A DNA stretch of 50,127 bases. It comes from an uncultured Spirochaetaceae bacterium. Its GTDB lineage: Bacteria > Spirochaetota > Spirochaetia > Sphaerochaetales > Sphaerochaetaceae. The stretch covers positions 1 to 50,127 of the forward strand of contig OMYY01000022.1 of the NCBI GenBank assembly GCA_900315435.1. Direction: 5' to 3'. Of this stretch, positions 18,701-50,127 are shown piece after piece; the stretch's first letter is position 1; the number at the start of each line of letters is the position of its first letter. The notes beneath the pieces were generated by a model. It was given only the letters and a program-made list of their open reading frames with translations. It was not told the DNA's origin and ran no database searches. Position numbers and translations under genes: made by a program.

Positions 18701-19123
18701 TCAATAGTCCACATGTGTTGCTTCGGGCAGAGGCCCGGTATACCTTGCCCAGTTTGCAGGATTGTAGATGTCGTCCTTCACGGTGAACCACTCTGACGGG
18801 GCAATTGAGAATTCGCTGTTCTTACGGATACGGGTGGCTTCCGCAGGAGCATCCACCAGTTTCATCCAGGCATTCTTGTCCTCAACCTTGAGCGGATTCT
18901 GGGTAAACGGATTTCTGGCATCTGCAATCAGGCCCTCGGAGGCCAAGGCGGGAGTATCCGCATTGGTCATGAAGGCATCATCCTTCCGAATCGCGCCATG
19001 GCTTGCAAAATCCTTCACCAGCAGGGTCGCCACAAAGCAGTCCTTGGTGAGGCCTACGCCCTTGGTTTGGGTAAAAAGGCCAGAATCAAAACCCATGCCA
19101 TGGTCACTGACAATGATGTCCCC
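18701..19123 (-). pseudogene. 3' remnant of a membrane sulfatase/LTA-synthase-like gene
   Basis: The minus-strand frame encodes the last ~140 residues of the protein family found at 45208-47887 and 47982-50127: DIIVSDHGMGFD (the conserved metal-binding DH), then LLVKDFASHG, FMTNADTPAL, NPFTQNP, and EWFTVKDDIYNPANWARY at the end. Nothing upstream matches. Homology begins about 30 nt after the stop codon of the dehydratase-activator gene, and the only possible start is a TTG at 19153 without a ribosome-binding site. The N-terminal membrane region and the catalytic threonine are missing, so it cannot be functional. It marks a deletion or replacement event. Confidence 0.8.
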
Positions 19124-19153
19124 AACCTTACTCCGAACTACCGACAAATACAA

Positions 19154-22187: not shown

Positions 22188-23051
22188 ATGGTTTCCGTTA
22201 TCATTCCTTCCTACAATCGCGCACGCACGATTCTTCCTGCGGTAGAGAGCGTCCTGAAGCAGACGTACAGCGATCTTGAGCTATGGGTGGTTGACGATTG
22301 CTCGACGGACAACACCGAACAGGTATTGGCACAACTTCAGGATCCTCGCCTCCACTATTTCCGGCTGAAGAAGAACTCTGGCGCCTGCACGGCACGCAAC
22401 AAAGGAATCGAGCTCGCCACGGGTGAATACATTGCCTTCAATGACAGTGACGACCAATGGCATGCGGACAAGTTGGAAAAACAGCTGGCGTTTCTCAAAA
22501 AAACCTGTTCAGACGTTGTCACCTGCGTAATGACCGTGAAGGACGAAGAAGGCAACGCGCTTCACGTCTTTCCCGACCATGGAGAGGAAGGCCCGCTCAC
22601 TTACGAAGATCTTCTTCTCTACAACTGTTGCAGTACCCAACTGATTCTAGGGAAAGCGGAATGTTTCAAACAATATCCGTTCGACCCTTTCATGCCCCGC
22701 CTGCAAGACTGGGACGAAATGCTTCGGCTCTCCCAGCACTTCAAGATTTGTTTCCAGAAAGAAATACTTGTGGATGCCTTCGTGCAGAGGGACAGCATCA
22801 CCAACCATCCGGAAAGGGGCGTAATCGCTATGGACAAGCTCTTTGAGAAACATCGGGATGTAATTGCCAAAAACCCACGCATTGCCGAAAGTTTCTTCCG
22901 CAAAAAAGCGGCATTCGTCTGCCAGACGGGCAAGAATCCCACCGAGGAGTTCAAGGCACTCAGGAAATATGCCCCTTCTGCCACCACCACGCTGAAGTAC
23001 CTGCTCTGTAAAACGGGACTGTATCTACCCCTGTCCAGGAGCAAACAATGA
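22188..23051 (+). CDS. Glycosyltransferase family 2
   Basis: A 287-residue soluble inverting glycosyltransferase. VSVIIPSYNRARTI opens the fold, VVDDCSTDNTE binds the nucleotide, and FNDSDDQWHADKLEKQL has the D-x-D metal site followed by the GT2 W/DKLE segment. AAGGAG precedes the ATG. The 3' end overlaps the YfhO gene by 4 nt, so the two are translationally coupled. In contrast to the GtrB-like gene at 16883 it has no C-terminal membrane helices, so it probably acts on a nascent glycan or lipid-linked acceptor. Sugar unknown. Confidence 0.87.
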   Translation: MVSVIIPSYNRARTILPAVESVLKQTYSDLELWVVDDCSTDNTEQVLAQLQDPRLHYFRLKKNSGACTARNKGIELATGEYIAFNDSDDQWHADKLEKQLAFLKKTCSDVVTCVMTVKDEEGNALHVFPDHGEEGPLTYEDLLLYNCCSTQLILGKAECFKQYPFDPFMPRLQDWDEMLRLSQHFKICFQKEILVDAFVQRDSITNHPERGVIAMDKLFEKHRDVIAKNPRIAESFFRKKAAFVCQTGKNPTEEFKALRKYAPSATTTLKYLLCKTGLYLPLSRSKQ

Positions 23052-25732
23052 GCCATCCTTCAATGCATGGGGAACGTGCGGAATTGTTGCGAGACGCCAA
23101 GTTTCCTTGTTTCTCCCCTTATGTCCAATACTCCGTAGTCTTTGCCATTCTGGCGGTCTGCTGTTTTCTTCCTTTCCCTCTTTTACAGAAACGGCTCACC
23201 CGAGGTGATGGAATCACTCAACACATGACGGCATTGGCCTATTGGGGCTCGTATCTGCGCACGTGGATTGCATCCGGGTTCCGTGTGCATCCCCAATGGG
23301 ACTTCTCGCTTGGGTTGGGCTCCGACATACTCACTACCTTGCACTATTATGCCATCGGGGATCCACTCAACCTACTCAGCGTCTTCGTACCTGAGGCATA
23401 TACTGAGCATCTGTACTATTTCCTGATTTTCCTTCGCCTTTACCTTGCGGGGCTTTGTTTTATTGCTTTCTGCCTTTCCCATAAATTCCATTTTCAAGGT
23501 GCGGTAGCGGGGGCTGTCGTCTATCTCTTTTGCGGTTACACGCTGATGTGCGCACCACGTCACCCTTTCTTTCTCAATCCATTCATCCATCTTCCTTTGC
23601 TCTGTATGGGCGTCGACCGGATTCTGGATGAACGGAAACCTGTTCTTTTGGCAGTAGTTGTTGCATTAGCAGGCTCAACCAGCTTTTATTTCCTCTACAT
23701 GGAAACTTTTTTTCTGGGTCTTTACGTCCTTCTCCGCTATGGAGAGGCACTCTTTTCACGACGTTTTCCACACCCGCTCAATTCTGTACTTTTGCTTCTG
23801 GTAGCATACCTGACCGGTCTCTGCCTCGCCAGCTGGGTGTTTGTTCCCAATGTCGCTATGTTCTTCACCACCGAACGATCAACCGAGACAATCACCTATA
23901 ACTGGCACTATCCACTTCTCTACTACGTAAAGTTGCCACTTGCGTTCGCCTCACCTATCTGGCTCTATGCTTACACATTCCTCGGATTCAGTGCCCCAAC
24001 ATTGATTGCAGGGCTTTTCCTGTTCCACATCCACACCATAGAATCAAAAGTCCTCAAATGGGCACTTTGTTTCTTGCTATTGTTCCTTGTATTCCCCTTT
24101 TTCGGGCACATGCTCAATGGATTCAACTATATAACTAACCGCTGGTTGTTCGCCGGAGCATTTACCATGGGTTTGGTTACTGCCTATTCGCTTCCTCGCA
24201 TGGTAGTTGCTTCTCGAAAAGAACTGCTCATCCCCATTTTCTTTTGGATTGCTTTCAGCATTCTGGTACTTGGGGCATCGATGTTCTCTGCCACGCTCCG
24301 AAGCCATTGCGCCTCCAGTTTCGCTGTCCTGTTGGTCACCGCCATAGGACTGCTATTCATCCATCAGTCAGACAATAGGAAAATCTGGTTAGGAGCGATG
24401 CTATGCGTCTCTACGATACTCAATGCCTGGGTCTTCTATTCCCCGTGGGGAATTAATTACCTTGACGGATTTGTCAATTTCAAAACTACCTTTTCCTCTA
24501 CCATCATTCATCCGAACCATGCATCCGCACCTTCTGGATTCGCTCGATTAGAAACCTGGAGACCGTATGCGACCGAAGAGATGACAAAGTCCGAATACGA
24601 GCGAAACCAATATGTTCCCAATGTCAATGCAAGCGCCGTCAACCGAACCCATGAGACATCCTACTACTGGTCCATCGTCAACGGACTTTTAGTGAAAGCC
24701 CACGACAGTCTTGGACTTTCAACCGCCAGTTCGTTAAAACTTTGCGGTCTTAATGGACGGAGTTCCCTCATGGCCCTCTATGGTGTCAGTTCGTACTATG
24801 CGCCCTCTGATTCTCCGGATCCTCTTCCCTATGGGTATACAATGGCAGGTGATGATGGTGAATTGATAGTGTACCAAAGCGACAATACGCTACCCCTTGC
24901 CTTTGGATATACCCACCGCATAGACCCCAATGTATTCGCCATGCTCTCTCCTGTAGAAAAACAGGAAGCATTACTCCAGGGAGTAGTAACAGACAAACAG
25001 ATAGCCATACCCATACTCCAACCAATCATTCCCATCCAAGACGTTCCTTTTAGCATAGTCAGTTATGATGAAGGGGTGGAACCACTGACGGACGGCATCA
25101 AAGTCACAACAAAACAAAGCGGATTTACCATTCGGCTCACCCAAACAACCTACAATTCTGAACTGTATCTGCTCCTTCCTGGACTTATCGGACCGGGGGA
25201 AAAAACTGACATGTACATTTCCTGCGGGCAATCGGTGCACAACTACGAAATCACCGGCAGGGAAATGGAACAAGGACACAATCCAGCAATCTGCTTAGGC
25301 TACAAAGATTATCCGGCAGGAACGGAAATTCATCTGACCTTTTCCTCAAAAGGGACATATTCTTGGAAAAAGGTGCAGTTGCAAGCATTAGACCCCACCT
25401 CACATGATTGGGCAATCCAGGACCTTCAGAACCGCACTCTCACAGACCTCGATGTGAGATCCGACCGAATTACCGGTACATACCATGCACAAACTGAGAC
25501 GGTGCTTTGTCTGACCATACCTTATACGACAGGCTGGCACGCCTTCGTCGATGGGAAAAGTGTCTCGACTTTCCCCGTGCAAGGCTGTTTCACGGGAATC
25601 TCTGTAGAGTCAGGTACACACACTATTCGTCTCATCTATCGAACACCGTTTCTCGTTTTGGGCTGCATGCTTACCGTCATTGGTTTGTGTATCTTGCTTT
25701 TCCTCATCTGGCAAATGAAGAAACGAAGCTGA
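23048..25732 (+). CDS. YfhO-family membrane protein (GT-C type)
   Basis: An 894-residue polytopic protein with about a dozen helices in the first 480 residues, a large extracytoplasmic domain, and a last helix at about 865-888. RLTRGDGITQHMTALAYWGS and GLGSDILTTLHYYAIGDPLN in the first loop, and TIPYTTGWHAFVDGKSV near the end, are diagnostic of YfhO. In Bacillus and Listeria, YfhO-type proteins place a sugar from undecaprenyl phosphate onto teichoic acids on the outer face of the membrane. A similar role in decorating an envelope polymer is inferred here. Translation is coupled to the upstream GT2 gene (ATGA). Confidence 0.85.
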   Translation: MSHPSMHGERAELLRDAKFPCFSPYVQYSVVFAILAVCCFLPFPLLQKRLTRGDGITQHMTALAYWGSYLRTWIASGFRVHPQWDFSLGLGSDILTTLHYYAIGDPLNLLSVFVPEAYTEHLYYFLIFLRLYLAGLCFIAFCLSHKFHFQGAVAGAVVYLFCGYTLMCAPRHPFFLNPFIHLPLLCMGVDRILDERKPVLLAVVVALAGSTSFYFLYMETFFLGLYVLLRYGEALFSRRFPHPLNSVLLLLVAYLTGLCLASWVFVPNVAMFFTTERSTETITYNWHYPLLYYVKLPLAFASPIWLYAYTFLGFSAPTLIAGLFLFHIHTIESKVLKWALCFLLLFLVFPFFGHMLNGFNYITNRWLFAGAFTMGLVTAYSLPRMVVASRKELLIPIFFWIAFSILVLGASMFSATLRSHCASSFAVLLVTAIGLLFIHQSDNRKIWLGAMLCVSTILNAWVFYSPWGINYLDGFVNFKTTFSSTIIHPNHASAPSGFARLETWRPYATEEMTKSEYERNQYVPNVNASAVNRTHETSYYWSIVNGLLVKAHDSLGLSTASSLKLCGLNGRSSLMALYGVSSYYAPSDSPDPLPYGYTMAGDDGELIVYQSDNTLPLAFGYTHRIDPNVFAMLSPVEKQEALLQGVVTDKQIAIPILQPIIPIQDVPFSIVSYDEGVEPLTDGIKVTTKQSGFTIRLTQTTYNSELYLLLPGLIGPGEKTDMYISCGQSVHNYEITGREMEQGHNPAICLGYKDYPAGTEIHLTFSSKGTYSWKKVQLQALDPTSHDWAIQDLQNRTLTDLDVRSDRITGTYHAQTETVLCLTIPYTTGWHAFVDGKSVSTFPVQGCFTGISVESGTHTIRLIYRTPFLVLGCMLTVIGLCILLFLIWQMKKRS

Positions 25733-38970: not shown

Positions 38971-40740
38971 TCAGAAGATGCTATAGGACGCACCTAGACC
39001 ACATTGTACATCCCAACCATCATTGCCGAAAACCCCATCTTTATTGCATACGTGCATGAAATCAAGCTCGCCATAGGTCTTCCATTTCTCGGTCCATTGC
39101 CTCTGGCCGTTGAAACCCAGCACCAAACGACGTGTCGCATTCCAGAAACCGCCAGACGGGGTATGGGTATGATAGGCATCCTGCCCCTTCCACCAGTAGC
39201 TGTTCTCCACCGTCAGCGTCTCCCCTTCCATCCACTTACTTCCATGAATCAGATAGAACAGACGGACCATCGCAGACCAGTCTCCAGGAACCGTGAACTT
39301 GCTGGTCATCTGGAACACGATGGAATCTCCCCCATAGGGGTATCCCATGGATTGATAGTCGTAATTGATGTGGCCATCAACCCACCGCCGGATGGCGATG
39401 ATGAAGTTCAAGTTGTCGTACTTGTCAGCATCCGCAACGCTGGCAGGATTGGAAGCCCCACTTTCCTGCCTGCGAAGGTATACATACGGATACGTATATG
39501 CAAACTCCACGGTGTTCTTCCAAAATCCCTTCTCGGTTGGAAGGATGTTTTTCGCACCGAAAATGAATCCGAACGCATCAGGATGGACAGAAGGAGAAGA
39601 CGCGCTTTCGGAAATGACGAAGCGCATCTCGTCAATGGCCATCTGATAGTACAGGTTCCACCCTGGAGCCACAGCCCAATCCAGATCGAGCTGGAGAATG
39701 GAATTCGCATCGGAATTGATGTAATAGTTGTGGTAGAAGGTAAAGGGATTCAGAATGCGGAAGTCAAACACATGGTTTTTCGGCTGATACATGATGGCTT
39801 CGGTCACGGCGAAACCAATCTTGTCATTCCACAGACGTAATTCAAAACGGTGGGCGATGAACATCTTGAACCCCTTCAAAGGGGAATCCTCGCTCCACGG
39901 ATCCTTCCCCCCTTCATCCTCGTAGGTTTCCGCAGCCTGTATCTCTTCCGGCGAAGGAAAGGAAGAAAGCACGAACGTGTACTTGAAGTTTTTCTCATAT
40001 GCGGTCAGACGCAATGCATTGAGGTACTGCACATGGCCGTCAATCACCATGTTGCCCGTCTCTCCTGCACCCCAGGAAATACGGTCACGACCAATTTCCG
40101 TAGTCCACCCCTTGCCGCCGAAGGCAAGAAACGCGCGGGTGGGATAATTCGCATCGTACGATACCTTGTCGCCACCATAGAAAAAGGCGGCGTTCGTATC
40201 CATAAGATGTTCTCCAAACCAGTATTGGTCCCAATTGTCGGTATGTGCCTCATCACCAACGAAAGTGTTCTTCGATGCACGGAAATCCGGGAAGCCCAGA
40301 TAGGTATAGAAATGGTCGACAAGGAAATTCTCGAAACTGACCGACGCCAGCGGAGCTCGCTTTTCATAGGTCAGCATCCAGTCATTGCTCGTATCAAAAT
40401 CCGTATTGGCATGCCCATAGAACTCCGGATTGAAATACGCGTCGAAATCAAACACCTTCTGCTCCGGGAACTGGTCGAGGATGAAACGGTAGATTTGCTG
40501 TTCATTGGCACTGAACAGGGACGCATCCAGCTTTCCTAACAGGAACTCGACCTCGTCTTGGCTCCAAGGCTTCGCCAACGAAGGAAGTGCCTTGCCCTGG
40601 GTGATAAAGAGGGTCTCGACCGACTCATAGACGGGAGAATCCAGATGAAAGATGTATTGATGATTAGCGCCAGATGCCATGGCCGGCAAAGCCAAGGTAC
40701 AAGCGACAATCAGGACAGATAGAGATTCCAACGTATGCAC
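38971..40740 (-). CDS. Wzi-like capsule assembly outer-membrane protein
   Basis: A 589-residue protein predicted to be exported and to form an outer-membrane beta-barrel with an N-terminal helical part. The start is placed at the GTG at 40740 (MHTLESLSVLIVACTLALPA, signal peptide ending AMASGA) because AAGGAG lies 9 nt upstream; the longer frame to 40767 would spoil the signal peptide. GKALPSLAKPWSQDEVEFLL, GRDRISWGAGETGNMVIDG, AHRFELRLWNDKIGFAVTEA and LNPFTFYHNYYIN fit the Wzi/capsule-assembly family, which anchors or organises surface polysaccharide. Aromatic-rich alternating strands fill the C-terminal half. First gene of the wzi-manC-wzx operon. Confidence 0.78.
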   Translation of the reverse strand: MHTLESLSVLIVACTLALPAMASGANHQYIFHLDSPVYESVETLFITQGKALPSLAKPWSQDEVEFLLGKLDASLFSANEQQIYRFILDQFPEQKVFDFDAYFNPEFYGHANTDFDTSNDWMLTYEKRAPLASVSFENFLVDHFYTYLGFPDFRASKNTFVGDEAHTDNWDQYWFGEHLMDTNAAFFYGGDKVSYDANYPTRAFLAFGGKGWTTEIGRDRISWGAGETGNMVIDGHVQYLNALRLTAYEKNFKYTFVLSSFPSPEEIQAAETYEDEGGKDPWSEDSPLKGFKMFIAHRFELRLWNDKIGFAVTEAIMYQPKNHVFDFRILNPFTFYHNYYINSDANSILQLDLDWAVAPGWNLYYQMAIDEMRFVISESASSPSVHPDAFGFIFGAKNILPTEKGFWKNTVEFAYTYPYVYLRRQESGASNPASVADADKYDNLNFIIAIRRWVDGHINYDYQSMGYPYGGDSIVFQMTSKFTVPGDWSAMVRLFYLIHGSKWMEGETLTVENSYWWKGQDAYHTHTPSGGFWNATRRLVLGFNGQRQWTEKWKTYGELDFMHVCNKDGVFGNDGWDVQCGLGASYSIF

Positions 40741-40997
40741 AGGATGCGTCTCCTTCCTCGAAACCACTTCAGTATTACGGAATAGAGGGAAAAAAGGAAG
40801 GCTTTCACCATACAGACATGAATGCTATCCAAACTGGCAAACACATAGGCTAGGAATGTCACGTGGGTAAACGGCAAGGATTCTACCTGGATTCAGGAAT
40901 CCAACAAATACACCCCGGAGCAACGACTAGCTCGATATGAATACTGCGTCGTGACTACGGGTTGTTGCGGTATTGGTTTCATGGGCCAATCGCATAC

Positions 40998-42454: not shown

Positions 42455-43792
42455 TCAACAGTTGCCAGACGGATAACCATCGCATTGCTTGGAGCGACCA
42501 AATAAATACAACAGATATCCCATTGGAATGTAATACACGTAGCAGATTGGAAATGTATGCAATCTTAGATTTGACTCCACCATACCGTGAAGCACGGCAA
42601 TGGAAAGTAATGTGACAGCCAGGCAGAAAGACTCATCCATGAAGGGCCATTTCTTCCTTTGGAAGAAACTCCCAAACGGCAGTATCAACGCATAGAACAT
42701 GATTCCCAAAAACAGGAGGGCAGAGGGTATCCCGCAGAAAAGGGCCAAACTCAAGATGCTATTATGAGGATTCACAAAGACTGCAACCACCTTCGGCACA
42801 ACAGTTGCTCTTTGCTGCTTCACTTCCCAAGCGGTCCAGCCAAACCATGGCCTTTCCCGAATAAGGCTGATTGATTCCTTCCATATGCCAGAACGTTGCG
42901 AAGTATCGAACAACGACTTTCCGAGATGAGAGGTTTGCGGGGCGAGTAGTTTCTGCCCTCCAAAAATGACAAGCAGAAACAGTCCGCAGGTGGCAAGCAC
43001 GATTGCGAAGGAAACAAGGAAGGCTTTACGCGAACGGGAACGCGCATAGCACAAGCACAGAAGACAAGGATACGCAAAACAACCGGCGAGCAACAAGAAA
43101 AAGCTGGCACGGGAACCAAGCGAAAGGAGAACACGAAACGAGGCGACGAACAGAGCGAACCAGACGACGGCAATCCAACGCTTTGTCTTACATGCCAGAA
43201 GGAAATACGCCCACGAGATGACCCCAAGAATCAAAAATGACGGGCCAAGCCGATTGGGATTTTCTTGCAGGTAAAGGTAACCACCAACAGCTTTCCACGT
43301 CTCCGGCATCGGAGCACCTGTTCCCAAGAACAGCACGCCATATAACGCTGGCACCAGACCCACAATACCAATCCCGACAAGCCCCATCATCAATACGTGC
43401 ATCTCCTTTTTCACCAATTCGTGTGGAAAAGACAAGGGAATCATGCAAAACACAAATAGGTGAAGGATGCAATAGGAAGCCATGGTAAAGCTAATGTCCA
43501 TGCGACGATGGTGCACCAGCAAGGCAATAAATGCAAACACGGAAAACAACGCTATGACCGGAAATGCTGGAACCTTGTGCCAATCCTGGAACACGCACAC
43601 CCGGATGGCTACATGCATGACCACCACCAGTGTGACCGCCTTGTACAACAAGGTAACCACAAAGGGCATGGTAAACGGAAAGTACCGCTCGGGTTGTTTT
43701 ACAGCTACCTTCACCAGGATGAGCAGTTTGATGATGGTATCATATTGGACTTGACGTTCAACCGACATTCCTCGTATGGCATTCAGTTGCAT
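42455..43792 (-). CDS. O-antigen ligase / Wzy-type polymerase
   Basis: A 445-residue inner-membrane protein with about 11-12 helices. The Wzy_C region contains LQENPNRLGPSFLILGVI, LLSLGSRASFFLLL, RSGIWKESISLIRERPWFGW and FVNPHNSILSLALFCGIPSA, which match the O-antigen ligase family (RxxxW and HNxxL motifs). Either lipid A-core ligase (WaaL) or repeat-unit polymerase (Wzy) is possible; the HN motif favours ligase or a related oligosaccharyl transferase. The ATG at 43792 has AAAGGG upstream; a GTG lies at 43804. It lies 18 nt after the GT4 gene. Confidence 0.85.
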   Translation of the reverse strand: MQLNAIRGMSVERQVQYDTIIKLLILVKVAVKQPERYFPFTMPFVVTLLYKAVTLVVVMHVAIRVCVFQDWHKVPAFPVIALFSVFAFIALLVHHRRMDISFTMASYCILHLFVFCMIPLSFPHELVKKEMHVLMMGLVGIGIVGLVPALYGVLFLGTGAPMPETWKAVGGYLYLQENPNRLGPSFLILGVISWAYFLLACKTKRWIAVVWFALFVASFRVLLSLGSRASFFLLLAGCFAYPCLLCLCYARSRSRKAFLVSFAIVLATCGLFLLVIFGGQKLLAPQTSHLGKSLFDTSQRSGIWKESISLIRERPWFGWTAWEVKQQRATVVPKVVAVFVNPHNSILSLALFCGIPSALLFLGIMFYALILPFGSFFQRKKWPFMDESFCLAVTLLSIAVLHGMVESNLRLHTFPICYVYYIPMGYLLYLFGRSKQCDGYPSGNC

Positions 43793-43810
43793 TGATGTAC
43801 ACACCCTTTC

Positions 43811-45208
43811 CTATTTTTGCAAGAAGGTCTTGAACAGTATACCTATTTCCTCCCACGAATAGTAGCTGATTTTGGTCTTGTCCGCGCTGACAAACACTCC
43901 GGCCGCAACATCCCTCATCGCCTTCTCCAGATGCCCTGCCAGTACGTCAGGCGAACTGTCTTCGAAGTACCGTATCTGGTCCTTCATGATTTCCTCGAAT
44001 ACCGGAAGCCGCCTTGCAAGGATTGGTTTCCGGTAGAAGGTCGCCTCCATCAGCGGGATGCCAAAGCCTTCCGCATGCGAGCAGTTCAGGACGAACAGGC
44101 ACATCTCATACAGCTTGGAAAGCAACAGGTCGCTTGCCCCGACGGCAAGCAGCAGGTGTTTCCCATACTCGGGGTGTCTCTTGCAGTCGGCCACGAAGGT
44201 TCCGGTACTCATTCCCACCCTTCCGGCAATCACATAGGACACATCAGATCCCTGTTTCCAAAGCAATTCAAAAGCCTTGATCGCCTCGCCATAGCCCTTT
44301 CTCGGCTCGAAAGTGCCGACACTGAAAACAAATCGCTTTCCTTTCAGGACATCCACCAATGCCTGCTCGGATGCATCCAAGTCCGCCCCTTCCGGCTTTT
44401 TGAAATCGCATCCGTTGTAGAAGCAGCCGTACTGCATCTCGGAATTTACCTCATAGCCATGATCCTTGGCGCATTGTTTGATTTCCTCCACCGCCGTCAT
44501 GGAGACGGACAGCACCAAGGAAGCGTTGGCCATGATGTCCCGGAAGGCATGGATGAACCCGATGTTGCTCTTGACCATCTCCGGGTGCTGGATGGGAATG
44601 ACGTCATCCACAACAGCAACGACAGCAATTCCTTGCTCGGCAAACAACGAGAGCGACACCCCATCAGGCACTGCCGCCTGCATCAATACCAGCTTGTCCC
44701 CCTTCTGAAAGACGACGGGATCGGAATACACAGGGGCTTCCGGGAATCTTGCCTGCACGAGACGATTCGCATACTGATACCCATTCGTGCGGGGATTGCA
44801 ATAGACTGCCCGGCAGTCCAGATCCTTGTCGACAAGCAGGACCCGAAGCAATTCATAGATTCTCCGGTGCAAGCCGGTCTTGTCGTCATGCCGGTAATAG
44901 TTCGTCACGTCCAGGAAACAGACGGGATGGGGATCTGTCCCGCGATTGAAGCGCATTCTGCCGTCACGCAGATGGAAACGTTTGGAAGAAAAGTCGCTTT
45001 TCACCGCATTCCAGAAGGTTTCACAGCCATCAGTTTCAGTCCAGTCCATGGAAAGAGTCAGCAACCGGCAGACAACGACGCCATGCTTTCCTCTCAGCAG
45101 ACGATTTGCCACCCATTGGGTCTGGAACGGAAGCAGGAAACAACCCACACGGTACAGCAAGACCAGACACGACTTGGCGAAATGAATCAGGCATCCCATG
45201 CCCTGCAT
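43811..45208 (-). CDS. Glycosyltransferase family 4
   Basis: A 465-residue GT-B retaining glycosyltransferase with a ~70-residue basic, hydrophobic N-terminal extension that may bind the membrane. PVCFLDVTNYYRHDDKTGLH and RRIYELLRVLL begin the first domain, VVDDVIPIQHPEM follows, FSVGTFEPRKGYGEAIKAFE opens the second domain, and CSHAEGFGIPLMEATFYRKP is the E-x7-E site. The ATG at 45208 overlaps the sulfatase stop (TAATG), implying translational coupling to the YidC-sulfatase gene; a GTG at 45229 is the alternative. Confidence 0.83.
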   Translation of the reverse strand: MQGMGCLIHFAKSCLVLLYRVGCFLLPFQTQWVANRLLRGKHGVVVCRLLTLSMDWTETDGCETFWNAVKSDFSSKRFHLRDGRMRFNRGTDPHPVCFLDVTNYYRHDDKTGLHRRIYELLRVLLVDKDLDCRAVYCNPRTNGYQYANRLVQARFPEAPVYSDPVVFQKGDKLVLMQAAVPDGVSLSLFAEQGIAVVAVVDDVIPIQHPEMVKSNIGFIHAFRDIMANASLVLSVSMTAVEEIKQCAKDHGYEVNSEMQYGCFYNGCDFKKPEGADLDASEQALVDVLKGKRFVFSVGTFEPRKGYGEAIKAFELLWKQGSDVSYVIAGRVGMSTGTFVADCKRHPEYGKHLLLAVGASDLLLSKLYEMCLFVLNCSHAEGFGIPLMEATFYRKPILARRLPVFEEIMKDQIRYFEDSSPDVLAGHLEKAMRDVAAGVFVSADKTKISYYSWEEIGILFKTFLQK

Positions 45209-47347
45209 TATGGCTGGACTATCGACCAATTGGCAAGGTCAAGAATGCTGTCTTTCACATGCAGCCATTCATCCGGACCGACGATAAAGGTATTCGGCTT
45301 ATTGTCCCGTGGCGTATGCCGCTGAGCACTCGTCATGGTCACCCCGCCCTCCTTCTGCATGACAAGAGGCTTGCCAGTATACGGATTTACCGGATTCTGG
45401 ATCAGCTTCTTGGCCGCCAACTCGGGCACGTCAGCCACGGACATGAATGTGCCATCGCTCCGGAACGCGCCATGCTCCCCAAAATCCTTGACCATCAGCA
45501 CAGCACGGAAACTGTTCAGGTCAGCCCCGTTGGGCAACCGCAGGTATCCCGGCGCATCCGAACCCTCGCTCCAGCCATGGTCACTGACGATAATGATCCG
45601 GGTATTGTCGTACACGCCCTGCTCCTTCAGATAGGAGAACCAGTCTGCGAGTTTCCGGTAGGTAGCCGCATTGACATGGTACAAAGGACTCGTCCGGAAC
45701 GGAGTATCCAGCACGTTCTTTGGTTCGGACACCGGCACATACTCCGGCGTCTGGAGGATGGTCGGCTTATGGGTCGCTTCCGTGTCGTAGATATTCAACC
45801 GGTTTCCCCCGTCGGTCACTGCCGTAATCAACGGAAGTGCGGCAAGAGCGGAGTATTGGTTGAGAAACTCGCTATTCAGCCCCCCGATATGCATGGCGGG
45901 ATTCAGCTTGTTCAGCCAGTTGCCGTTGTCATACAGCACCTGATGGAAAACCAATGGAGAAACCCGGAAGAATGCATACCGGATCAAGTTGCAAGTCAAT
46001 GCGGCCGATGGCTTGGCGACCTCGCCATCATACTCGTTCGCCAACCACCAGGCATTGTACCGGCCCTTCAAGGAATCCACCTTCACATGTTCCATCCCGA
46101 TAAAAGGAGTCGGGTCGAAGTCCCAGTTGTAGTTGCTCCACGCCGGGTCGGTAAACTCCACTTCATAGCCATGGTCGGCAAACAGTCTGGGCATCACCTT
46201 CAGCGCTTCGTTCTGTTTTTTCCGCAGAGGTTCCGCATCCCTTCGGTTCAGTTCCACAGGGGTATACTCGTATCCTCCGTACAAGGCAGGAGTCCCGTAG
46301 ATGGTATTGCCTCCGAAACTGATGGTGTTCGGGTAATAGGTGAACCCAGAAAACGCCTCTCGCAATTCCGGCTTCTCCTCAAAGATGTATGGCACATAAC
46401 AGCTCATGCCACGGTCAATCATGATCACCAGCACGTTCTTTCCGTTCCGGCTGAATGAAAAGACCGGTCTCAGGTCCGATGTCTTCGTCTCGTTGTTCCG
46501 GACCATCTCCTCATGGCGGGGAATGAACCGCCGGTAGGCGATTTCCGTCCGGACCATGTCGGCCAGACCAAGCAGAACCAAACCCAGCACGGCAAAAACG
46601 AGGAGATGCACTATCACCCGCCCCTTCCAGCGACCAACCAGGAGCAACATGAAGAAACAGACAAGCGGAATCACCAAAAGGTCAAAGACCGTATGCAGGG
46701 TGATTCGGCCCAGAGCGGAAATATCCGTGAATTGCAGGTTGACCAGAACCGAACCATAGGAACGCGAGAAGACAAACAGGTTCAGCAACGCCATGCAGAA
46801 TGCCACTGTCGAAGCAATGGCGAGGAACGCCTGGATGCGTTTGTCGAAGAGCCGGTATAAGCAGAAAGGCCAGACCAGGCACAAGCCCACAGCCTGGCAG
46901 AACGTGATGCCGACAAACGCCAAGGGATTGCGATAGGGTTCCAAGAACGCGAACTCGGTCGGAGAAGAAACAATCAAGCCCGAAGGAACCACCACGCCAA
47001 GCAGAAGCGCACAACCGGTCATGTTGAGGAAAAACAGACAATCCCGGAACCGAGGGGAATTGGCCAAGGGGGTCAGCCACCTGCGGTAGACCCACTTCAG
47101 GAACGCAAGCTCCAACGGGATACAGACAACCAAGGCGGCACCAAAGAGCAAGAACGCCTGGGTGGAAGGTTTGCCGGTATGGGTGGCCAGCATCAGGATG
47201 ACTAATGCGATGCTTGCGGTCGCACAGAGGAAATACAACACTTTGGCGGGGTGTCTGAGCTTGTAGAAGATGTTCTTCACTAGGCTGAGGATGTTGTTCA
47301 TCGTCCAGTACACCAGCAGCCCCGACGGACTGCCATACAGCACGACC
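45208..47347 (-). CDS. Membrane sulfatase/LTA-synthase-like transferase, main part of a YidC-sulfatase fusion (copy B)
   Basis: About 712 residues. The first ~30 (LYGSPSGLLVYWTMNNILSL) are the last membrane segment of a YidC/Oxa1 domain, followed by further helices to about residue 262 and then an extracytoplasmic alkaline-phosphatase-fold domain. In it VLVIMIDRGMS (D310) and SDHG (D588, H589) supply metal ligands, and T347 in FGGNTIYGTPALYGG is the likely nucleophile, by comparison with EptA/LtaS. Such enzymes move phosphoglycerol or phosphoethanolamine from lipids to glycans. The frame has no proper start at 47343 (a GTG in mid-domain); the real N-terminus is the YidC part at 47348-47887, out of frame by one position at 47347/47348. 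Paralogous to the gene at 47982-50127. Confidence 0.8.
47249..47347 (-). repeat. 99-nt perfect repeat, inner copy
   Basis: Identical base for base to 50029-50127 (constant offset 2780), while the sequences to the left of both copies diverge at once. It encodes the end of the YidC-like segment (SPSGLLVYWTMNN, then a KNIFYKLRHP stretch). Its upstream edge coincides with the frame break. Confidence 0.95.
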
Positions 47348-47887
47348 CTCCCGAAGCGGATGCCCCTTCGTGTACAGGTACCCGGCCACGCAGTTCGCCA
47401 CCGTCATCACCACCGGCAGCACGTTCACCCGCATCCCCCAGACATGCAGCAGCCCGTCCGGCGAGCCCAGGTCGTCCAGAAACCAGAACGGGCACCCCTT
47501 CAGCGCAGGCAGGTTGGACAGGAACGCGTACGCCGCCAGAAAGAACGGTATCTGCACCAGAATCGAGAACGCCGAGCGCAGCGCGTAAACCGGCTTGTAG
47601 CCCTGCTCCCGGTAGTACGCGCTCAGCATCATGAACCGCTCGTCCCCCCGGAACGCCTTCCTGATCCGCCCCACCTTCGGCGCCATCGCCATCTCCTTGT
47701 CCCGTTCCACCCCCTGCCAGCGCTCGGCTACCATGTAGATCGGCAGCGTCAAGAGCGTCACCGCAAACGACAGCCCTACCGTCGCTATGCCGTAGTCGTC
47801 GACAACACGGTAAAGAATCGTGTAGATGATTTCAATGGCTTCCGCGATGGGGAAAATACACAGCCAATACAGGATATGTCCAATCAT
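47348..47887 (-). CDS. YidC/Oxa1-like N-terminal part of the fusion protein (copy B)
   Basis: About 180 residues from the ATG at 47887 (MIGHILYWLCIFPIAEAIEI). DYGIATVGLSFAVTLLTLPI is the first conserved YidC helix, ALRSAFSILVQIPFFLAAYA the second, and VNVLPVVMTVANCVAGYLYT the third; GMAPKV-like MAMAPKVGRIRKAFRGDER is the cytoplasmic hairpin. The groove arginine of true insertases (VRLLxLP) is replaced by threonine (TLLTLP), so insertase activity is doubtful. After HPLREG the frame ceases to match; the continuation is in another frame at 47347. Compared with the family about 13-14 residues (roughly 41 nt) appear missing. The open frame past 47347 is meaningless. Confidence 0.78.
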
Positions 47888-47939
47888 ACGCTCTCTTTTC
47901 TCGCAGCAGGAATTCCAAGAAAGAACCCGACCCCACGAT

Positions 47940-47975
47940 GTGGGGAAGTATAGCATACGAAGGTGTATCGTATGG
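47940..47975 (-). promoter_or_regulatory. Intergenic region between the tandem fusion genes, with extended -10 and hairpin
   Basis: The 94-nt gap 47888-47981 contains, on the minus strand, an inverted repeat CATACGA/TCGTATG with a 7-nt spacer, then TGCTATACT (an extended -10 element) and a CCCCAC/GTGGGG hairpin. It may carry a terminator-like structure for copy A and a promoter for copy B. Confidence 0.3.
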
Positions 47976-47981
47976 GTCCTA

Positions 47982-50127
47982 TCATTTTCTCACCTGTTTC
48001 CAGTTTTCAATCTGGAAGATATCGTCATGCACCTCAAGCCACTGGTCCGGGTCGATGGTCAACGTGTATTTTCCGTTCTCTTCCGGTTTCCATTTGTTGG
48101 CAGTGGTGATGGTCACGCCATCCTGTTTCCCTTCCATGGTAATTTTCTGACCGGTGTACGGGTTTACGGCGTAGGCGAGCAAATCCCGGGTCAGCAAGGC
48201 AGGGGTATCCGCATTGGTCATGAACGAGGAATCCTCCTGCATCGGCCCGCTTGCGCCAAAATCCTTCACCATCAGCAACGCGCGGTACTGGTCGAGATGC
48301 TTTCCTAAAGGAAGCGCCAGGTTCTCGGCCGCAGAGCGACGCGACTGGGCGCCATGGTCGGAGACCAGAACGATGCGGGTATTGTCATAGACGCCCTGCT
48401 CTTTCAAATAATCGAACCACCTTGCAAGCAGGCGGAAGGATGCGGCATTGACATGGTACTGTTTCACATTCTCCACCGGTGCCACATGGTCGCCCTCTTC
48501 GGGATTTTCCACCGGGATGTAATCGGGAAGGTGGAGGATTACCTCTTCATGGGGGAGTTCCGTGTCGAAACTGTTGTACCGGTCTGTCGGGTCATCGGTG
48601 GTTTCCGTGATGAACGGCAACGCGTCCACCGTCGCGTACTGGCGGACGAACAGGTCGTCCAAGCCCCCTGTGGTATTCAGTTCAGGATGCAACTCGTTGA
48701 GCCAGGTCCCGTTGTCGTACAGGATCGCATGGGTTGCAAGCGGCGCAGTCTCCAGGAACGCATAGCGGAGCATGTTGCACTCAAGCAGTTTGGAATACTG
48801 GATCGTCTTGCCGCTGAAGCGGGTGCTTTTCCACCATGATGCGTAGCGGGAAGTGATCCCTTCCGCCTGGACATGGTCCATCCCCTCAAACGGGGTGCCA
48901 TCGAAATACCATTTGTAGTTGCTCCAGGGAGGATTGGTGATCACCACCTCATACCCATGGTCGGAAAACAGTTTCGGAAGCACCTTCAGCGCCTCGTTGT
49001 GCTTCTCTACCATCGGGATATTGGATTTGGCCTGCATCTCAAGCGGCGTGTACTCATATCCCCCGTACAGGGAAGCGGCGCCATGGAGCGTATCCTCGCC
49101 GAAACTGATGGTGTTCGGATACCAGGTGAAACCACTGAACTGTTCCCGCAGTTCGGGTTTTTCATCGAGCAGGTACGGGACATAGGCGCTCATGCCACGG
49201 TCAAGCATGACCAGCAGCACGTTCTTGCCGCTTCGGGTAAAGGTAAAGACCTTTGCAAGATCCCCGGTTCCCCCTTCCTGCTCTGCGACAGCCTTCTGAT
49301 GCTCGGGAACATATTCCCGGTAGCCACGCTGGATGGCGAAGATGCGGATCACGCCCATGCCAACAAGCGAGCCCAAAAGCAACGAGCAGACGGACATCAG
49401 GACATTGCTCCATTTCAGCGTGAAAAGCAGTCCCACAAGCATACAGGCCAGAAGCAAAACTACCAGATTTCCCAGTTGCCGCGCCCCATGGCCGCCCATC
49501 GACGCGTTGGAGAACTGGAGTCCCACCAGCATGGAGCCATAGGAACCTTGGAACAAAAACGTATCCAGGAGTCCGACGACAAACAGGCAGACGGCACCTA
49601 CCGTGAAGCAAGACTGCATGTTCACCGGGAACATCTTGTACAGGGCGGTTGCCCACAGGAAGAATCCAAGCGCCTGCAGGAAGGCGAATCCGGCAAAGAC
49701 CAACGGGTTGCTGTACGGCTCAAGGAACGCAAACTCAGTCGGGGAACTGCTGATCAGGTTCAAGGGAATCAGGCCGCCCAGCAGGAACAAGTACCCCCCT
49801 ATTCCCACAAAAAAGAGACCATCCCGGATCTTCCCTGCCGAATCCAGCCACCTGATACCTCTCCGGTAATACAGGCGAAGCAGGTAATACCACAGGGGAA
49901 CCAAGGCAAGGAACAGGGAACCGCCATAGATGATGAACAGGGTGGAAGCCCGGCCAGTCCCCCGTCTGGTCACGGCAACGCAAATTGCGGCGAGGCAGAC
50001 GTACAGCACCCCCAACAGTACTTTGACCGGGTGTCTGAGCTTGTAGAAGATGTTCTTCACTAGGCTGAGGATGTTGTTCATCGTCCAGTACACCAGCAGC
50101 CCCGACGGACTGCCATACAGCACGACC
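47982..50127 (-). CDS. YidC-sulfatase fusion protein, copy A, N-terminus beyond the window
   Basis: About 715 residues are visible; the frame is open to the window edge, inside the YidC-like domain (VVLYGSPSGLLVYWTMNN). Membrane helices continue to about residue 265, followed by the sulfatase-type domain: VLLVMLDRGMSAYVPYLLDE, FGEDTLHGAASLYGGYEYTP (likely nucleophile threonine in EDT), LVSDHGAQSRRS (metal-binding DH) and the FMTNADTPALLTRDL segment near the end. It is colinear with copy B at roughly half identity, so the pair arose by an old duplication. Catalytic residues are conserved in both. Predicted to transfer a phospho-substituent to an envelope glycan; substrate unknown. Confidence 0.85.
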   Translation of the reverse strand, partial: VVLYGSPSGLLVYWTMNNILSLVKNIFYKLRHPVKVLLGVLYVCLAAICVAVTRRGTGRASTLFIIYGGSLFLALVPLWYYLLRLYYRRGIRWLDSAGKIRDGLFFVGIGGYLFLLGGLIPLNLISSSPTEFAFLEPYSNPLVFAGFAFLQALGFFLWATALYKMFPVNMQSCFTVGAVCLFVVGLLDTFLFQGSYGSMLVGLQFSNASMGGHGARQLGNLVVLLLACMLVGLLFTLKWSNVLMSVCSLLLGSLVGMGVIRIFAIQRGYREYVPEHQKAVAEQEGGTGDLAKVFTFTRSGKNVLLVMLDRGMSAYVPYLLDEKPELREQFSGFTWYPNTISFGEDTLHGAASLYGGYEYTPLEMQAKSNIPMVEKHNEALKVLPKLFSDHGYEVVITNPPWSNYKWYFDGTPFEGMDHVQAEGITSRYASWWKSTRFSGKTIQYSKLLECNMLRYAFLETAPLATHAILYDNGTWLNELHPELNTTGGLDDLFVRQYATVDALPFITETTDDPTDRYNSFDTELPHEEVILHLPDYIPVENPEEGDHVAPVENVKQYHVNAASFRLLARWFDYLKEQGVYDNTRIVLVSDHGAQSRRSAAENLALPLGKHLDQYRALLMVKDFGASGPMQEDSSFMTNADTPALLTRDLLAYAVNPYTGQKITMEGKQDGVTITTANKWKPEENGKYTLTIDPDQWLEVHDDIFQIENWKQVRK
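50029..50127 (-). repeat. 99-nt perfect repeat, copy at the window edge
   Basis: Exact duplicate of 47249-47347. The window ends at precisely the base where the inner copy meets its frame break. Confidence 0.95.

Follow-up and report, generated by a model that had tools for sequence, protein, structure and literature searches.

The 50,127-nucleotide stretch analysed here (the window) is the entire contig C27 (OMYY01000022.1, assembly GCA_900315435.1) of the 2.8-Mb draft genome of an uncultured Spirochaetaceae bacterium, and its end carries two tandem minus-strand genes that join a YidC/Oxa1 module to a sulfatase-type domain of the alkaline phosphatase superfamily. The two sulfatase-type frames span 45208-47343 (downstream gene) and 47982-50123 (upstream gene), and the in-frame start of both corresponds to the last YidC helix, VLYGSPSGLLVYWTMNN. 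The fusion genes comprise the following features (positions within the window):

47349-47887, minus strand: YidC/Oxa1 module of the downstream fusion, reaching from an ATG at 47887 as far as the loop that precedes the fifth core helix (PF02096, 41.4 bits against a cut-off of 35; the module of relatives is YidC-folded, with a Z score of 17.7 to 6al2)
47347-47348, minus strand: junction where a net 35 bp is lost and the frame breaks, probably an artefact of assembling a repeated YidC segment (unbroken in the sister locus L040; the repeat ends at the contig end)
45211-47346, minus strand: C-terminal part of the downstream fusion, comprising the final YidC helix and its SPSGLLVYWTMNN motif, linker helices, a five-helix membrane domain and the catalytic domain (layout from the model of the relative L012); the stop codon ends at 45208
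45211-46437, minus strand: catalytic domain (alkaline phosphatase superfamily) of the downstream fusion, aligned through the invariant D, T, H, DH, KD and D
47985-50126, minus strand: C-terminal part of the upstream fusion, running off the contig (PF00884, 31.0 bits); its YidC half is probably at 3707-4256 of contig C22, at the end of that contig
47985-49220, minus strand: catalytic domain of the upstream fusion, from the same family alignment

An initial annotation of this DNA had proposed two adjacent genes joining YidC to a sulfatase-type domain, and this proposal stands in part. The SPSGLLVYWTMNN motif, further helices and a sulfatase-superfamily domain are found in both copies, as are the claimed D, T and DH residues of the catalytic domains, and the YidC-type helices reported at 47348-47887 were recovered by the PF02096 match. 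However, these remaining YidC helices of the downstream gene lie in a different frame from its sulfatase part, and the contig ends before any more of the YidC part of the upstream copy is reached. For PF00884, the upstream copy scores above the gathering cut-off of 25 bits, whereas the downstream copy falls below it (20.1 bits).

Uninterrupted relatives of the fusion comprise more than 100 proteins, mostly of 850-950 residues, from Spirochaetota, Bacillota, Actinomycetota and one Mailhella metagenome-assembled genome (MAG). A tree was built from 44 fused modules and 14 stand-alone YidCs. A long-stemmed branch supported at 100/100 sets the fused modules of Spirochaetota, Bacillota and Actinomycetota together apart from the stand-alone proteins; on this tree, the fused module has a single origin. 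The family is broader than the diderm setting in which the initial annotation had placed it. Up to approximately six fusions occur per genome beside an ordinary YidC, and an ordinary stand-alone YidC is also present in the genome of the window and in the other genomes examined; therefore, the fusion is not the housekeeping insertase. Within the family, the YidC part is more conserved than the enzyme half (mean amino acid identity of 53% vs. 37%). Among the matches listed from plasmid and phage collections, coverage reached at most about one quarter of the fusion protein, corresponding to its YidC part.

The architecture was resolved with an AlphaFold model of L012, a relative from the same genus as the window, built with 106 sequences (predicted local distance difference test score of 92.1, predicted template modelling score of 0.88). 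The modelled protein consists of a YidC core (residues 1-219), two linker helices (224-280), five membrane helices (289-477) and a catalytic domain (490-911). Its TIGR03592 (YidC) score of 91.4 bits lies over the curated cut-off of 84.3, and the YidC module modelled alone matched 3wo7 in Foldseek (E 1.6e-7, TM 0.71-0.73). In VIA-align, the same module matched E. coli YidC (6al2, Z 17.7, root-mean-square deviation (rmsd) 3.1, 199 residues) and B. halodurans YidC (3wo7, Z 17.6), with the best match outside YidC/Oxa1 reaching only Z 5.8; helices 31-77 and 80-93 of the model correspond to the YidC cytoplasmic hairpin. For the full model, the top Foldseek matches in the Protein Data Bank (PDB) across the membrane and catalytic parts were PbgA/YejM, MCR-1 and EptA. 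The catalytic domain matched sulfatases, phosphonate monoester hydrolases, LtaP/LtaS and PbgA at VIA-align Z scores of approximately 19-21, and PbgA aligned over residues 284-906 (Z 19.8, 404 residues) at an rmsd of 15, which presumably reflects a different placement of the two domains. By the helix count from the YidC topology, the catalytic domain would be extracytoplasmic, as in EptA/LtaS. The domain search and the structure predictions of relatives thus agree with the initial annotation that an extracytoplasmic LtaS/EptA-type domain follows a YidC fold.

Seven residues are invariant in the 106 proteins (D501, T538, H716, D779, H780, K810 and D829 in L012 numbering). D501 and the DH motif align with the phosphonate monoester hydrolase 2w8s, and T538 would be the nucleophile equivalent according to its order and its position at a helix start. 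The fusion is not an LtaS orthologue, with 13.8 bits at best against the cut-off of 970 for the LtaS equivalog model NF053595.

The YidC module differs from its stand-alone homologs in the groove. In the HMMER alignment, E. coli R366 aligns to residue 43 of L012, and the window has T there, as the initial annotation had stated; across the 106 fusion proteins the residue is N (49), T (29), S (20), G (3) or Q (3), with two gaps, and none of the 104 filled positions holds R or K. Stand-alone YidCs of the Spirochaetota genomes examined, including that of the window, have K at this position, and those of several Lachnospiraceae genomes (L140, L141, L144, L145) have Y or N. A positively charged groove residue in YidC has been termed strictly conserved (PMC8920935), but as judged by these alignments the charge is not strictly defining for the YidC family, with some stand-alone Lachnospiraceae proteins also failing it. 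The family-wide charge loss in the aligned fusions is real, but it is by itself no demonstration of lost insertase function, because those stand-alone YidCs also go without the charge. The further suggestion that the fold no longer inserts proteins does not follow from the charge loss, as E. coli YidC also tolerates it, its groove charge being dispensable if residue 517 is polar or aromatic (PMC8920935).

Accounting for these observations by a working insertase or chaperone, dedicated to the fusion's own membrane part or to neighbouring glycan-assembly proteins and joined to a transferase half, is tentative and rather unlikely, although it is the strongest of the competing explanations. It is consistent with the retention of the entire YidC core, including the cytoplasmic hairpin, with the better conservation of this core than of the enzyme half, with the retained polar residues of the module (S39, N/T/S43, Q/E111, T161, N164, Y204 and N208) and with the dispensability of the charge in some contexts. 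However, the charge is absent throughout the fusion family whereas Spirochaetota stand-alone YidCs keep K, and a one-to-one covalent fusion would be odd for a general insertase. Additionally, W is invariant in the fusions where they align with E. coli 517; S. mutans YidC2 is alike there, and this is the context in which YidC2 requires its arginine (PMC8920935).

The gene neighbourhood points to surface glycan biosynthesis. In the window, the glycan locus with YfhO and an O-antigen ligase that the initial annotation had described is supported by Pfam matches, and the other features are:

43814-45229, minus strand: group 1 glycosyltransferase directly downstream of the fusions (PF00534, E 2.4e-18)
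42458-43804, minus strand: O-antigen ligase family protein, Wzy_C (PF04932, E 1.7e-14)
23048-25729, plus strand: YfhO family membrane protein (PF09586, E 7.4e-99)
18701-19153, minus strand: remaining 3' end of a third fusion gene; at its junction (19116-19118), an additional 2.27 kb is present in the sister genome, where a 909-residue frame is intact

Across 76 fusion loci, at least 42 carry a partner gene for a TagF/TarL-like protein of approximately 415 residues (PF04464; closest to Cps3D among solved structures, E 2.5e-8), a lower bound because many loci are cut by contig ends; the gene mostly lies about 1 kb from the fusion. Among 151 genomes (that of the window and 150 relatives), the partner occurs in 20 of the 22 with a long fusion match vs. 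3 of the 129 without (Fisher p 9e-20, shared ancestry not corrected for); the latter count leaves out strong full-length PF04464 matches (e.g., G031, G046, G063, G065, G071) that were taken as ordinary teichoic-type polymerases, and becomes approximately 8 of 129 with them. In the genome of the window, contig C22 carries the TagF/TarL-like gene, a large unnamed protein and a YidC module in this order, placing the partner two genes upstream; a Pfam search gave no match for this large protein (C22 1865-3700) or for the one at 38974-40767 of the window.

Genes for headgroup synthesis are also found at the fusion loci. LicC-like nucleotidyltransferases occur in 18 of the 76 loci, the same protein also comprising an aminotransferase in 11 cases and a choline kinase in 2; phosphoenolpyruvate (PEP) mutase occurs in 5 loci, and LicC-like, choline-kinase or phosphonate genes are present in 21 loci when cytidine triphosphate (CTP)-transferase-like matches are counted. 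The order in G004 is fusion, TagF/TarL-like gene, fusion, PEP mutase, decarboxylase and nucleotidyltransferase-aminotransferase, and contig C83 of the window's own genome (L128 4829-9097) encodes a cytidylyltransferase-PEP mutase fusion, a phosphonopyruvate-decarboxylase-like protein and a nucleotidyltransferase-aminotransferase fusion. A LicD-like seed search of the 76 loci gave no match, although visual inspection of L132 and L133 did show LicD-like starts. The phosphoglycerol substitution that had initially been predicted is not singled out by these neighbours, as the TagF/TarL-like, LicC-aminotransferase, choline kinase and PEP mutase genes point at least equally to phosphocholine or aminoethylphosphonate. 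Separately, LicC-like nucleotidyltransferase and choline kinase genes adjoin fusions in two Coriobacteria loci (L073 1476-3251 and L069 11-1429), pointing to phosphocholine there.

Combined, the domain order, the model folds, the conserved residues, the single origin, the neighbourhood and the charge loss are the observations from which we infer a transferase rather than a hydrolase, a lipid donor, a glycan acceptor and the kind of headgroup. The fusion would be an extracytoplasmic transferase of phospho- or phosphono-headgroups from a membrane lipid to a surface glycan, with the YidC module favoured as a lipid-handling groove over an insertion device, a reading held with modest confidence, slightly better than even. 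On the cytoplasmic side, the TagF/TarL-like partner and LicC/PntC-type enzymes would make or load the headgroup, activated with cytidine diphosphate (CDP) or cytidine monophosphate (CMP). The YidC module of approximately 220 residues may then bind or scramble the donor lipid, or may be an integral membrane scaffold; this step is the least certain, and purified E. coli YidC does scramble lipids (PMC10491306). Outside, the invariant Thr, with a metal held by D and the DH motif, would accept the headgroup, a phospho- or phosphono-alcohol carried by a membrane lipid, before passing it to the surface glycan.

Several points weigh against this transferase reading. The family has no known activity, the transferase role being predicted from sequence and models; PbgA, the top structural match, is titled in the PDB as a lipopolysaccharide- or cardiolipin-related protein and not as a transferase; and the donor could be soluble or linked to undecaprenyl phosphate instead. 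The groove charge is likewise lost in stand-alone Lachnospiraceae YidCs, and in G001 the partner gave no PF04464 match, though a shortened relative adjoins its fusion. Lastly, the catalytic domain is equally near in fold to hydrolases, with choline sulfatase at Z 20.7 and phosphonate monoester hydrolases at Z approximately 20, as near as LtaS or PbgA. That the catalytic domain is hydrolytic, acting as a phosphodiesterase, phosphonate esterase or sulfatase to trim surface polymers, is nevertheless quite unlikely. LtaS/EptA-type transferases use a Thr nucleophile and hydrolytic sulfatases a Cys or Ser; the nucleophile position is Thr in all members of the fusion family, the five-helix membrane part resembles that of EptA/PbgA, and the linked genes are biosynthetic.

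The frame break of the downstream gene was compared with the sister genome G002, the nearest relative, which matches the MAG contig JAQYHB010000004 (labelled Spirochaetales bacterium). Its locus L040 encodes a protein with 98% identity to the downstream fusion in a single unbroken frame (REKVQVYGMAGLFLLVLYGSPSG, also written ...HPLREKVQVYGMAGLFLLVLYGSPSG...), relative to which the window has a net 35 bp fewer at 47347/47348. The segment 47240-47347 matches 50020-50127 at 98%, and base 47347, the next after the junction, corresponds within the repeat to base 50127, where the other copy runs into the contig end; contig C22 terminates in the same YidC segment, close to the same break. Because the break coincides with the end of a repeated YidC segment at the contig end, and because the sister genome is unbroken, these sequences indicate that it is most likely an assembly gap, and contig C22 likely continues C27 and carries the YidC half of the upstream fusion. 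A programmed frameshift or two separate genes was rejected as the leading explanation, the relatives being unbroken and the break falling at the contig-end base. A true frameshift in this strain (a pseudogene or a programmed frameshift yielding no fusion protein) is very unlikely: the frame is indeed broken as assembled and the same genome has another truncated copy (the 18701-19153 remnant), but the break matches the contig end of the other copy to the base, the first of the missing bases are still on C22 and all of them are in the sister genome, and neither a homopolymer nor a slippage motif is apparent at the junction. In a separate observation, the end of the window's downstream fusion recurs at 99% identity in L051 (CACWIO010000109, labelled as a Clostridiales MAG), probably because this contig belongs to the same spirochaete lineage and was mis-binned, or through very recent transfer.

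The tandem copies differ sharply in how their parts have diverged. Between the downstream copy and C22, the first 32 YidC codons share 65 of 96 nucleotides and the next 146 codons 413 of 438; between the two window copies, the first 33 codons after the gap share 98 of 99 nucleotides and the next 67 codons 80 of 201. At fourfold-degenerate sites, 79 of 89 are identical in the YidC part (downstream copy vs. C22) compared with 77 of 165 in the rest (between the window copies). Three unrelated tandem pairs behave alike, with identities for the YidC vs. catalytic part of 0.72 vs. 0.32 (L065), 0.64 vs. 0.29 (L069) and 0.73 vs. 0.40 (L098); most other tandem pairs have no clear excess of YidC identity. 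Gene conversion, or a swap of enzyme halves beside a common cassette, explains the near-identical YidC cassettes with diverged enzyme halves. Protein-level selection was rejected as the cause, the silent sites being near-identical too.

A more specific extension of the transferase reading is speculative and more apt to fail than to hold: a one-protein flip-and-transfer system in which a built-in scramblase or lipid groove of the Oxa1 superfamily carries a headgroup donor lipid, loaded on the inner side by the TagF/TarL-like and LicC/PntC enzymes, through the membrane to the fused outward transferase, with some tandem copies keeping a recombination-homogenised YidC cassette and varying the enzyme half.

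All component families are known; the combination, the single origin, the partner gene and the cassette homogenisation appear to be new. No fusion of YidC to a sulfatase, LtaS, lipoteichoic acid synthase or phosphoglycerol transferase was reported in the literature searched, subscription papers lying outside it. Oxa1/YidC proteins are known as insertases, and a large clade that fuses the YidC fold, devoid of its groove charge, to a probable lipid-using transferase would offer a way to see whether the lipid scrambling reported for the fold serves any physiological purpose. The fusion proteins are at risk of being annotated plainly as membrane protein insertase YidC. The fusion is also a candidate for the late phosphonate or phosphocholine decoration of surfaces in spirochaetes and gut Clostridia, late steps that have been termed enigmatic (PMC6697681).

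Compared with known systems, a subset of the fusion loci resembles the Pnt and lic loci (PntC, LicC; PMC6697681) in having a LicC-like cytidylyltransferase fused to an aminotransferase or choline kinase, and PEP mutase. The description of those loci names LicD-like transferases and glycosyltransferases and mentions neither YidC nor sulfatases (PMC6697681); relative to them, the fusion would act late, as an additional step or as a substitute for one. With LtaS/EptA/MCR/PbgA-type proteins (6xlp, 6v8q, 9nww, 5fgn, 4uor), the fusion has in common a set of five membrane helices ahead of an outward-facing catalytic domain, in which D, T, H and DH occur in the same order, but it adds a YidC core and two linker helices in front and scores far under the LtaS cut-off. 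With YidC/Oxa1/Alb3 insertases (TIGR03592; 6al2, 3wo7), it agrees over its N-terminal 220 residues in fold and order of helices, in the cytoplasmic hairpin and in the end motif, but it has N, T or S for the groove R/K, specific S39, N164 and N208, a transferase-like half and a separate clade (100/100).

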